Shown here piece after piece: positions 5,728 to 18,631 of a stretch of 38,104 nt of DNA (position 1 is its first letter; each line of letters opens with the position of its first letter). The notes below the pieces were generated by a model that saw only the letters and a program-made list of their open reading frames with translations, did no database searches and had not been told where the DNA came from. The translations under genes were made by a program, and so were the position numbers. Location: positions 39,589 to 77,692 of the forward strand of contig HG799464.1 of the NCBI GenBank assembly GCA_000531095.1, in the 5' to 3' direction. This stretch comes from Gemmata massiliana. GTDB lineage: Bacteria > Planctomycetota > Planctomycetia > Gemmatales > Gemmataceae.

Positions 5728-7654
5728 TCACCGCGGGAACCGACCCGGAGGGTAGTAACCGGAGTTCATCTGGTTCGGGTCGCGCATGCTCATCAGCTTG
5801 TCGAACCAGTCCATCCCCGCGCTAACGAGCGGAGCCAGCCCGCCGTTCTGGACCTTCGGCTGAAACAACTCGAACCGGAGTTCGTCTCCGGTGCGCTGTG
5901 CGGTCAGGAGCGCGGGGGGCAATTCGCTCAGCGAGGTTTGGAACGCGACGCGGGCCTTTTCCACGTCTTTCTGAAGCGCCTCGTGAACGGCCACGTTGCC
6001 GCCGCCTGGGGGTAGCCGGAGCGGTTCGACCGGGCGCACGGGGCCGCCGGCAACGGGCTTCGTCTCGAACGATGCGACGAGGTCGCCGATGTTAAGGGTG
6101 CCGACGAGTGCGAGACCGCCGGAGGGGAGGGGCGCTTCCTTGTTGTTACCCGCGACGGAGTTTGCGGCGTCGGGTGCGGTAGCTGCGGCCACGAGCTTAC
6201 GGTCCAGGCCCCAAACCAGTACCGAGTCCTTGCGCGCGTAGTGGACCGCGGCCTTCCACGGTAAACCGGTACCCGCGAGCGAGAGTATCTTCACGTCTCC
6301 CGTCGTTTCCGTCGAAGGTTGCGCCGCGTCCTTATCTCCCGCGATTTCCGCAACTAACTTCGGAATGAACGCTTCCAGTTCGGTTGCTGCGGTCGCGTCT
6401 TCTGCGTGGACCACGAACATCGGGATCGGTTTCGCGCCTTTCGCTAGTTCTTGTTTCGTGGGCACGATTACGGTGACTGTGCGGATCTTCGAGAGGAGAG
6501 CGTCACTCACCGACATCTTGTACTTCGCGTCGAGGTCTTTCACCACGTCGCTCGGCAAGCGCCCGAGTTCGCCGCTCCCCTTTACGAGTGCGTCCAGCAG
6601 GCCGAGGACGGCCGCTGCGCGGTCCTTTTCGGGTAGGTTCATTGTCGCGGCAAATGATGCGGGCTTGCGGGCGTGGTGGAGCGCATCGATCTTCACCGCG
6701 GGGCCGGAGAAGGCATCAAGTAGCGGGCTTTTTTGTGCGGGGTCGAATCGCGTGCCGATCACGAGTGACGATCCGCCGTCGCGGAACTGCACGCACCCGG
6801 CCACGGTCTTCAGTGCTTTCGGGTTGGTGACGAGCTTGAGCCAGGCGAAGAAATCGAGGTCCATCGGCGCACCGCGGAGGCGTGCGGCCGCGTCCAGTTT
6901 TGTGAAGAATTCCGGAGCGTTGGCGTAGAAGAACAGACCAGGTTTGCGGTAGGTCGGCGCGCTGGTCTTGAAGCCCTCGGTCGCGCGGAGCGAGTCCTTC
7001 TCGTCCCCGCGGAACCGCGCGATGATCGGGGCGATCGCGGTTTTACTCGTGCCCGCGACGAACAGCCCCGGAACATACGCGAACGTCGGCTCGTATGTCC
7101 CCTCCACCAGTTTGTCGGTTGCGAGTTTCGGGGTTGCTGCTCGGGTCGTAGTTGGTTGCCGGCGCGCGGTGTTGAAACACGGGCACCTTTCCGACTTCGC
7201 CCACGCGCCGGAGATCCTGGCTCGTGGTGACGAACGCGCGCGCGGCGAGTCCGGCCGCGGCGCTATCACCCGTGAGGACCGCGACCGCCAATTCGGGATC
7301 GCCGCGTTCGTTAAAGCCGATCAGCCCGACCGCGACCCCGCCGAGTTTGCGGAACTCGCCGAGTACCTCGGGCGACATTAACAGCGCGAGTTGCGCGAGT
7401 TCCTGTTTCGCTTTGAGTTCCGCGAGCGTCTTGGCCCCGTCCTTTTTGCCGTGAATGAACGGGATGCTGTCTTCCAGCGGCGTGCCTTTGAAGACTGCGG
7501 CGAGTTGGGGGCCGAGTTCCGCGGGGTTGTGCAGTTCGGCATACGCGGACGTGTTCGGCGGGAACACGTCCGCGACATCGGTCGGCGCTGCGGTCGCCGT
7601 GCCCACCGTCAGAACGAAACACGCGCCGAGAGCGAGGAGAGTTTGTCGAGCCAA
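5728..7654 (-). CDS. Secreted protein of unknown function, interrupted by a one-base frameshift
   Basis: Translation begins at 7654 with a clear signal peptide (MARQTLLALGACFVLTVGTA, cleavage near TAA-AP). The first frame is meaningful to about ...ATNYDPSS, then turns to nonsense. The second frame takes over at TPKLATDKLVEGTYEPTFAY and runs to 5728. The switch lies next to a run of four G at 7130-7133 (plus strand); removing one base restores a single frame of 642 codons. The protein shows repeated alpha/beta blocks and a Pro-rich segment (PVRPVEPLRLPPGGG) near the C-terminus. I do not recognise a named family with certainty; the location would be periplasmic or extracytoplasmic. The break is more likely a sequencing error than true decay, because both halves are well preserved. 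Confidence 0.75.
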
Positions 7655-15372: not shown

Positions 15373-16137
15373 ATGGATTCGTCCGATTCGCTGAAAATTG
15401 ACGAGAACCTCGCGCGATTTCTGGCCGCCTACGACCAGGGGCTCGAGGGCGGGGACACGGACGCGCTGACCGTCAATGTCCCGTTTCAGCCGGCCAACTC
15501 GTCCTCGGTTACCACCGAGCGCCCGGTAACCCCGATGCGCCCGGACGCACCGAACGAGGGTTCGCTCGGCGAACTGCTCCCGGACCCGGGATACCGGGGC
15601 GGGCGCTCGTCGCTTACACCGCCCCCCTCTCTCGCTGGTAACCCCCACCGCATCGGCCGGTTCGAGCTGCGCCGGCAACTCGGTAAGGGCGGTTGTGGCA
15701 TCGTATTTCTCGCCTACGATCCGAAGCTCCGGCGCGAGATCGCGCTGAAGATCCCGCGCCCCGAGATGCTCCTCAACTTGGACGCGAAGCGCCGGCTCAA
15801 GCTCGAAGCGCTCGCGGCCTCGGAGTTCGATCACCCGAACCTCGTGCCGGTTTACGAGTTGGGTGAGATCGGCCCGCTCTGCTTCATCGCGACCGCGTTC
15901 TGCCCCGGTCTGACGCTCGCGGAGTGGATCGACCGGCAAGCGTTTCCCGTTCCCTTGCGGCAAGCGGCCCGGTTGGTCGCCACGGTCGCCGACGCGGTTC
16001 AGCACGCGCACGACCGCGGCGTGTTGCACCGCGACCTGAAGCCGAACAACGTGATTCTCCAGGAAGTGAAGGTCGAGGAGAACGACGAGGCGCCGGCGGG
16101 CGGCGTTCAGATGCGCGGGCGTAATAACTTCGTATAG
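15373..16137 (+). CDS. Kinase-WD40 protein, N-terminal part (frame ended by linker sequence)
   Basis: ATG 15373 begins a low-complexity leader (MDSSDSLKIDENLARFLAAY) followed by a Hanks-type kinase N-lobe from about residue 93: RFELRRQLGKGGCGIVFLAY, IALKIPR with the ATP-binding Lys, HPNLVPVYELGEIG, and the catalytic loop HRDLKPNN. Host coding sequence ends at 16119 (QMRG). The last six codons and the TAG at 16135 come from inserted linker DNA. The DFG motif that should follow is missing and is resumed only as G-LAKL at 16157. This is the first half of one gene that continues to 18631. Confidence 0.85.
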   Translation: MDSSDSLKIDENLARFLAAYDQGLEGGDTDALTVNVPFQPANSSSVTTERPVTPMRPDAPNEGSLGELLPDPGYRGGRSSLTPPPSLAGNPHRIGRFELRRQLGKGGCGIVFLAYDPKLRREIALKIPRPEMLLNLDAKRRLKLEALAASEFDHPNLVPVYELGEIGPLCFIATAFCPGLTLAEWIDRQAFPVPLRQAARLVATVADAVQHAHDRGVLHRDLKPNNVILQEVKVEENDEAPAGGVQMRGRNNFV

Positions 16138-16156
16138 CATACATTATACGAAGTTA
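16120..16156. other. loxP-containing 454 paired-end linker left in the assembly
   Basis: Positions 16124-16156 carry a loxP site: arm ATAACTTCGTATA, spacer GCATACAT, and the inverted arm lacking only its last T (33 of 34 bp). The four bases before it (CGTA) match the flank of the 454 Titanium paired-end circularisation linker as I remember it, for a 37-base match with its 5' part. The host kinase frame is lost exactly at both edges. A natural Cre target inside a kinase catalytic core is very unlikely, so this is a sequencing-library artefact. Confidence 0.93.
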
Positions 16157-18631
16157 GGGCTGGCGAAACTGGCCGAGCGCGGCGGCCCCTCGGAAACCGC
16201 CACGCGCCAGATCCTCGGTACGCCGAAGTACATGGCGCCGGAACAGGCCCAGGCCCGGCGCGAGGACATCGGCCCGCCGGCCGACGTGTACGCGCTCGGG
16301 GTCGTTCTGTACGAACTGGTCGCCGGGCGCGCCCCCTACGACGGCGCGAGCGACGTGGAAGTGCTCCGGCAGTCCGTTGAGGGAAAGGCCGCGCCCCCGC
16401 GCCACTTCCGGCCCGATCTCCCGCGCGACCTGGAAGCGATTTGCCTCAAGGCGATGGCCCGGACCACGACCGAACGGTACCGTACCGCGATCGACTTCGC
16501 CGACGACCTGCGCCGGTTCCTCGACGGGCGCCCGACGATCGCGCGCCCGCTGGCGTGGTCCGGGCGCGCGATCCGGTGGCTCCGCCGTAACGACCAGATC
16601 GTGGCCATCGCGGTGCTCGCGGTGGTCGCCCTGTTCGTCACGCTCCTCGGCACGTGGAACTCGTGGCAGAACCGGAACCTCCGCAGTACCCACAACAAGG
16701 AACTCAACGACGTCCTCAGTAGTCAGGCCGAGCGCAACCGTTTCGATCAGCAGCGGGAGTACGCGCGCCACGTGCGCGACGCCTTTTACGCCTGGCGGGG
16801 CGGGAGCACCGGAGTCGCGACCGACTCGCTTGATTCGGCCCGGCGCGCCGCGAGCGCGCTCGTGGAGTCGACGGACTTCCCGCTTGATTACCTCGCGCGC
16901 CTGGTCAAAGCGGAGCGGCTCCACATCGAGTGCCCTGCGGGAGCCGTGACTGCCCTCGCGGTTACGCCCGATGGGACGCGGCTCGCCACCGGCCATGCCG
17001 ACGGGACGCTCACCGTGTGGGACCGCGCGACGGGGAACCAGCTCGGGACGCTAAAGGCGCACGCGGGCGCTGTAACGCACGTCGCGTTCGGCCTGGACGG
17101 AACCGTAATCGTGACCGTCGGTCGATTCGATGATTCCTCCTCGAATTTGACCACGTGGAGCGTCACACGGGCCGGGATCGTGGCCCCCGAATCGGGCAGC
17201 CGGCGCGTCGCTATCGCTGACGTCACCTGTTGTGCCGTAGCGCCCGACGGGAAGGCCGTGTTCGTCGGCGGCCCTAGCGGTTCCTTAGTGAAAGTGCAGT
17301 TCGCGAATCCGCAGGCGCGGCTCGTGGTCCCGGGCCGCGTGAGCGGGGCCGCGATTGTGGCCGTTTCGATCACCCCGGATGGGGCGAAAGTGCTCGTGGC
17401 CGATTCGAGCGGGATCACGTGCCGTCGGACCGCCGATTTGGAACAAGAATCGCTGCCCGCTCCGGTATCACGCGCGGACGTCACCGCAGTCGCGGCGAAC
17501 GCGATCGGTGCCCCCGTGATTGGGACCGAAGGTGGCAGCGTATTCGTTGCGGGTACGGCACCTTCGGGCGCGGGCAGCGGGCGCATTTCTTGGGTCGCCG
17601 TCAGTGGGACCAACATCGCGGCGAACGGGAAAGCGGGCCGCGTGCGGATCGGTGGCGCGGACCTCGTGACGGGTGATACGGGTGCGGTCCTCGCGGGGGC
17701 ATTTTCACCCGACGGTAAGACGTTCTTCACGGGTAGCGAGGACGGGACCGTTCGGTCGTGGGACATGGGACGCGATTTGTCCGAGCGAGCTGCGTGGAGC
17801 GAGGGACGGGTTGTTTCGATTACTGTTTCGTCCGCGGGTGGTGAGTTCGTCGTCGCGACCGATCGCGCCGTCCATCGCCACGGGACTGGGCCGCGGGTGA
17901 AGATTGCCGGTGCGGTACGGGCGGTTCAGACCCTCAGCACCGGAGCCACGCGCGCGGTCACATTCGAGGGGAAGTTGGTCGTCGTATCCGACTTTACCAC
18001 GAGCACGTCACGCGAACAGTTTCGGGTCACGGTACCCGGGCGCGGGGCACCAACCGCGGTCGCGCTCACGCCCGACGGCGCGCGACTGGCAATCGGTGAC
18101 GACTCGGGTCACATTACCGTGTGGTCGGTCACGGACCGGGCCGTGATCGAGACGATTGATACCGGTTCGCGGCACGCGGTGCGCGACCTGGTCGCCTCGG
18201 ACGACGGCCGGTTCGTTGCGACGCGCACCCCTGTCGGTGTGTGCGCGTGGGCGCTCGGTACGCCCGGGCAGTTCACGACGATCTACGCCGACGAGCGGTC
18301 GGTGTTCCACTTCCTTCCCGGTGGTGACCGCATCGTGACCGCGGGGCGCGACGGCGGGCTGATCGTGTGGTCCGTGAGCGGTCGAGAGGAGATGCGGTTG
18401 CTCGGGCACGTCGGGCGCGTGACCGGCTTGGGCGTTTCCCCCGACGGGCGCACGCTCGTCAGTGGGTACGCAACGGGCGAGGTCGCGTTCTGGGATCTGA
18501 AGACGGGTCAGGATCTGTTCGTGATCCGGCGGCACTCCACACCTGTGACCGCCATCGAATTCTCTGCCGACGGCAAGTTCATGGTCACGGGCGGGGACGG
18601 CCAAATTGCGGTGTGGGATACCCGGGATTAG
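16157..18631 (+). CDS. Kinase-WD40 protein, C-terminal part (kinase C-lobe, TM helix, WD40 propeller)
   Basis: The frame resumes at 16157 with GLAKLAERGGPSETATRQIL, GTPKYMAPEQ and DVYALGVVLYELVAG, the activation segment and C-lobe of the same kinase. A transmembrane helix (IVAIAVLAVVALFVTLLG) lies at about 16600-16655. The next ~600 residues form WD40-type repeats (AVTPDGTRLATGHADGTLTV, FSPDGKTFFTGSEDGTVRSW, VSPDGRTLVSGYATGEVAFW, FSADGKFMVTGGDGQIAVWD). Automated callers would start at ATG 16232 and lose the activation loop. Kinases with C-terminal propellers are abundant in Gemmata-like planctomycetes. The role is likely signal transduction; ligand and target are unknown. Confidence 0.88.
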   Translation, partial: GLAKLAERGGPSETATRQILGTPKYMAPEQAQARREDIGPPADVYALGVVLYELVAGRAPYDGASDVEVLRQSVEGKAAPPRHFRPDLPRDLEAICLKAMARTTTERYRTAIDFADDLRRFLDGRPTIARPLAWSGRAIRWLRRNDQIVAIAVLAVVALFVTLLGTWNSWQNRNLRSTHNKELNDVLSSQAERNRFDQQREYARHVRDAFYAWRGGSTGVATDSLDSARRAASALVESTDFPLDYLARLVKAERLHIECPAGAVTALAVTPDGTRLATGHADGTLTVWDRATGNQLGTLKAHAGAVTHVAFGLDGTVIVTVGRFDDSSSNLTTWSVTRAGIVAPESGSRRVAIADVTCCAVAPDGKAVFVGGPSGSLVKVQFANPQARLVVPGRVSGAAIVAVSITPDGAKVLVADSSGITCRRTADLEQESLPAPVSRADVTAVAANAIGAPVIGTEGGSVFVAGTAPSGAGSGRISWVAVSGTNIAANGKAGRVRIGGADLVTGDTGAVLAGAFSPDGKTFFTGSEDGTVRSWDMGRDLSERAAWSEGRVVSITVSSAGGEFVVATDRAVHRHGTGPRVKIAGAVRAVQTLSTGATRAVTFEGKLVVVSDFTTSTSREQFRVTVPGRGAPTAVALTPDGARLAIGDDSGHITVWSVTDRAVIETIDTGSRHAVRDLVASDDGRFVATRTPVGVCAWALGTPGQFTTIYADERSVFHFLPGGDRIVTAGRDGGLIVWSVSGREEMRLLGHVGRVTGLGVSPDGRTLVSGYATGEVAFWDLKTGQDLFVIRRHSTPVTAIEFSADGKFMVTGGDGQIAVWDTRD

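Follow-up and report, generated by a model that had tools for sequence, protein, structure and literature searches.

The loxP-like stretch that interrupts a protein kinase gene of Gemmata massiliana is almost certainly a leftover 454 Titanium paired-end linker retained in the consensus, an assembly artefact and not a chromosomal loxP site. It lies in a window of 38,104 nucleotides, the whole stretch of DNA analysed here, which occupies positions 39589-77692 of contig C3 in the organism's own assembly (G000). The copy in the window is one of dozens in this assembly, which could not be seen from the window alone. The artefact reading of the original prediction is supported by the many copies, by their clustering at gaps, by duplicates in fragment order at some of them and by the lack of the site in every relative searched.

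A circularisation linker in the window

We searched the window with the 37-base sequence, allowing up to three mismatches, and obtained a single match, at 16120-16156 on the forward strand and with no mismatches; at the same threshold, none of 100 shuffles gave a match. The matched bases comprise CGTA, the first 13-base arm of loxP, the spacer GCATACAT and 12 of the 13 bases of the second arm, exactly as had been described from the sequence alone. They are bases 1-37 of the 42-base Cre/loxP circularisation linker of the Roche/454 GS FLX Titanium paired-end procedure. All 37 bases agree, including the outer CGTA that lies outside loxP, and the window copy differs from the linker in lacking its last five bases (TACGA). 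The window copy also shares 33 of the 34 bases of the loxP site of Escherichia phage P1, but the bases adjoining it are unlike those that adjoin the lox site of P1. The coordinates of the features are collected in Table 1.

Table 1. Features at the interrupted kinase locus, in window coordinates.
Feature	Position	Strand	Basis
N-terminal part of a Ser/Thr protein kinase, cut just 5' of the DFG segment	15373..16119	+	Pkinase PF00069, E 1.7e-18
454 Titanium paired-end linker, bases 1-37 of 42 (CGTA and loxP without its last base), almost certainly not host DNA	16120..16156	+	exact match to printed linker
Apparent false TAG stop, made of linker bases in the kinase frame	16135..16137	+	frame reading
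Apparent false join; 30 host bases of all 15 compared loci absent between 16119 and 16157	16156..16157	+	locus comparison
Remainder of this gene, with the kinase C-lobe (starting at the Gly of DFG) and after it WD40 repeats	16157..18631	+	PF00400, E 4.9e-43; locus comparison

The 42-mer concerned is what we take to be the stock 454 Titanium linker, an identification that the printed passages together bear out. In one of them the 42-mer is printed as the adaptor to be screened out of libraries whose preparation followed a Roche 454 protocol, with a Roche circularisation adaptor and Cre. Excerpts of two further papers describe a Roche kit that uses Cre-LoxP, with the linker marking the junction (PMC3253782), and, in a genome report on Acidobacteria, 42-bp loxP linkers for 454 Titanium paired ends, where circularisation by Cre leaves a single linker bridging the fragment ends (PMC6992861). 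The same Roche adaptor was used with Illumina sequencing according to a passage from the guppy project, and the 42-mer appears in an excerpt from the ginseng project in a Cre/loxP mate-pair library run on HiSeq X-Ten (PMC5710592). Because these two libraries used it, the linker reveals circularisation by Cre/loxP and not the sequencer. The earlier claim that the linker tells the platform therefore stands for the circularisation step, but the linker alone does not prove the instrument.

The 454 platform would instead follow from the genome paper that matches this assembly. The isolate of that paper came from the water network of a hospital and was sequenced on 454 Titanium from 3-kb paired-end and shotgun libraries (BioProject PRJEB621); assembly with Newbler 2.8 (40-bp overlap at 90% identity) gave 417 contigs in 22 scaffolds of 9,249,437 bases, with ORFs that spanned a sequencing gap being dropped (PMC4672568). 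We infer that G000, with its 22 contigs and 9,269,192 bases, is this published draft. Among the literature matches listed, no report of linker residue in the Gemmata massiliana genome was found; a search for Gemmata massiliana together with loxP found no literature, and the matches listed for loxP with '454' were mostly genetic-engineering papers.

One kinase-WD40 gene split in two

The upstream kinase frame runs into the linker as CGT AAT AAC TTC GTA TAG, which ends the open reading frame at 16137, and immediately past the linker the downstream frame picks up again with the Gly of DFG (GLAKLAE). Since the remainder of the gene begins at 16157, the start given for the ORF at 16232-18631 lies too far downstream. 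Pfam searches recognised both pieces, and on the second piece WD40 models made up the best 25 of 42 hits.

We compared the locus with 15 other kinase loci, nine from other genomes (L148-L156) and six from a set of 63 loci. Three pairs (L005/L152, L006/L153 and L015/L155) gave identical figures and so probably represent the same genomes, which leaves about 12 distinct loci. All 15 carry exactly 30 host bases between the points that correspond to the two linker edges, a distance given by script output for 11 loci and read from coordinates for the other four, which lie on the minus strand (L150, L151, L152 and L155). In the 11 loci with a printed distance, the Asp-Phe of DFG lies among those 30 bases; with the Gly directly 3' of the linker, this agrees with the original placement of the linker at the DFG motif. 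Host bases for at least the Asp-Phe codons had been predicted to be missing. These codons are indeed absent, but the loss amounts to ten codons rather than two. Exchanging 30 bases of host sequence for 37 of linker shifts the frame by one.

The nine loci from the genus (L148-L156) encode the kinase and the WD40 repeats in single open frames of 1,087-1,272 amino acids, to which both the left and the right piece of the window gene match. The best-matching relative (G008) shares 99% identity with the left part and 91% with the right. Planctomycete Ser/Thr kinase-WD40 proteins (PF00069 with PF00400) likewise have one gene with the kinase followed by WD40 repeats; they are open through the DFG segment, whereas the window gene is cut there by the linker. 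The view that 15373-18631 is a single gene divided into two ORFs by a false TAG and a frame change is thus upheld, and, judged from these sequence comparisons, the gene is broken in appearance only, through the way the genome was sequenced and assembled.

Copies across the assembly and its relatives

Near-full loxP sites, with at most two mismatches, number 45 in G000, and the reversed control pattern gave none. Comparison with related genomes, which the original prediction had proposed as a check, found no loxP site in any of the 58 others among the 59 searched, and host bases in its place at 15 of 15 kinase loci. When fragments were included, the longer stretches held at least 75 linker places with a score of 15 or above, distributed over 69 of 70 loci. 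A set of 73 short stretches contained at least 76 places at a score of 11 or more and at least 74 at 15 or more, the longer set holding one more place because its stretches are longer. The list of places was seeded from searches with the loxP arms, one listing of which runs as far as contig C8, so that the fragment counts are a lower bound for later contigs, and two weak places scoring under 15 (L117, with its one N run, and a second place in L130) were dropped before counting.

Among the 74 places listed, 23 span linker bases 1-42, nine of them identical to the 42-mer throughout, and 61 extend to one or both of the linker's outer ends, in bases that lie outside loxP. The form seen in the window, with bases 1-37, occurs at 13 of the 74 and is the second commonest. 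Since the outer bases match the kit linker and differ from the neighbours of lox in P1, the kit linker and not phage loxP is the source that fits these copies.

Gaps and duplicates beside the linkers

The distribution of N runs was examined in those short stretches where a linker place had been counted (215,645 bases). The zones reaching 150 bases from a linker make up 24,331 of these bases and contain 27 of the 29 N runs; the remaining 191,314 bases contain two. Viewed by place, 28 of the 74 have an N gap within 150 bases. Ns come within 3 bases of 7 of the 56 truncated linker edges, compared with none of the 92 complete or near-complete edges.

Certain N-run lengths recur in L070-L140: 58 five times; 475, 114, 26 and 24 three times each; and 271, 307, 25 and 33 twice each. 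Such repetition may mean that the assembler estimated gap sizes in quantised steps. The first base of the window is itself directly 3' of a scaffold gap of 58 Ns, and another linker is present just before this gap at C3:39455-39497 (L094, G000:C3:37981-41015). A CRISPR-like array of roughly 9 kb (L204, G000:C3:1022904-1034938), with a 36-base repeat and a period of about 72 bases, is interrupted by a linker remnant at 6001-6027 and a run of 475 Ns, so that its true length and the spacers near the break cannot be read from the assembly.

If a linker marks the point where the ends of a circularised fragment were brought together, DNA on one side of it should recur one insert length away. We found a direct duplicate touching the linker at 19 of the 75 listed places, compared with 5 of 345 control positions chosen at random; one or more of the control matches fell in a CRISPR-like array, and the first 10 control hit rows listed were all at one L204 position. 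In eleven of the 19 cases the duplicates are separated by 1,424-3,971 bases and follow the order expected of a circularised fragment (its end, the linker, its start), the weaker among them being L226 (22 bases at 95%) and L227 (in repeat-rich DNA). One more is 818 bases apart in the order of a circularised fragment, five are only 52-184 bases apart and perhaps represent overlapping contig ends, and two are in the opposite order. No touching duplicate was found within about 6 kb at the other 56 of the 75 places.

Related genomes were informative at some of these joins. At L131/L234 (distance 2,406), the 76 bases to the right of the linker match G012 at 89%, about 2.4 kb upstream of where the left flank ends; part of these 76 bases also matches elsewhere in G008 and G012 at 79-83%, and G008 otherwise gave short matches only. 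Two linkers lie 24 bases apart in a repeat-rich region at L124/L227 (G000:C6, about 134061-134160). The outer flanks of L124 are colinear in G008 and G012, both of which are without a lox site, and about 100 bases adjoining the first linker, together with the bases between the linkers, have no alignment in either genome. L122 matched a repeated family and was uninformative on the join, and the match of L085 to G012 was mainly one-sided and gave little information. At the window copy, neither Ns nor a duplicate adjoin the linker, and both its flanks are colinear with the relatives, indicating that both flanks are in their right places.

Route into the consensus and alternative explanations

In the paired-end procedure, loxP linkers are added to sheared fragments and Cre closes each fragment into a circle, leaving a single linker between its two ends. 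Reads crossing the linker need to be split there, and some would have kept it, allowing the assembler to extend contig ends into the retained linker. A 42-base linker is long enough on its own for the required 40-bp overlap, and some of the joins may have arisen in this way. In the window, a contig whose last base was linker base 37 would have been placed directly against the following contig, no Ns being inserted, and the 30 host bases in between would have dropped out. We are surer of the artefact as such than of the route by which this copy entered the consensus. Probably the copy marks a contig edge that was closed with no Ns inserted. A lesser share of our confidence in an artefact goes to the second route, in which a chimeric or linker-bearing read was merged inside a contig. 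This is a possible but doubtful account of the window copy: it is consistent with the lack of Ns there and with mate sequence continuing past the linker at other copies, but the recurrence of the 1-37 form at 13 of the 74 listed places and the confinement of immediately adjacent Ns to truncated edges (7/56 against 0/92) point to contig ends.

Explanations that place loxP in the chromosome itself were weighed against the same observations. A real site, dispersed by an element resembling P1 or by a Cre-like host recombinase, would account for the core sequence, which is that of loxP, and G000 does contain three tyrosine-recombinase-like matches to P1 Cre, where among 20 other genomes only G002 has one. 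The frames concerned (L142, L143 and L144) align with most of the length of P1 Cre at 27-30% identity (E 3e-16 to 6e-12). A single search of G000 with the P1 Cre protein found no Cre recombinase, the best match being 30% identical, with three matches at E below 1e-10 and the fourth at 0.5. G002 has a comparable recombinase match but no lox site, and none of the 58 relatives searched has a site. A comparison of the P1 flanks with those of the window site found no P1-type context, the outer bases instead matching the kit linker. The N gaps and fragment-order duplicates that cluster at the copies, and the host bases lost where the linker sits, also speak against a real site, which we consider very improbable; natural loxP was rejected on the low identity of the Cre matches, the match in G002 without a site and the non-P1 flanks. 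Its fullest form, with dozens of true chromosomal sites scattered by a distant Cre-like tyrosine recombinase and one of them cutting the kinase at DFG, is the least credible of all. loxP is a standard genetic tool, and an engineered scar or loxP-tagged insertion in a laboratory strain would fit a site that interrupts a gene. Deliberate engineering does not sit well with at least 75 places, many of them fragments and 28 of the 74 listed beside N gaps, nor with a window linker flanked directly by both parts of the kinase gene and no other foreign DNA between them; on these grounds it was rejected. The matching paper, moreover, concerns an isolate that came from the water network of a hospital (PMC4672568). 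We regard engineering as even less probable than a real site in general, and retain the paired-end linker as the explanation.

Consequences for use of the assembly

The finding bears on data quality, as the sole genome of this species in the collection searched carries at least 75 linker places. The copy in the window introduces an apparent false stop and frameshift into a gene, and other copies carry misplaced mate sequence or lie beside gaps. The filter applied to gap-spanning ORFs in the published draft acts on gaps, and linker joins without Ns, like that in the window, would escape it. Gene counts, pseudogene calls and domain inventories drawn from this assembly should be masked at the linker places.
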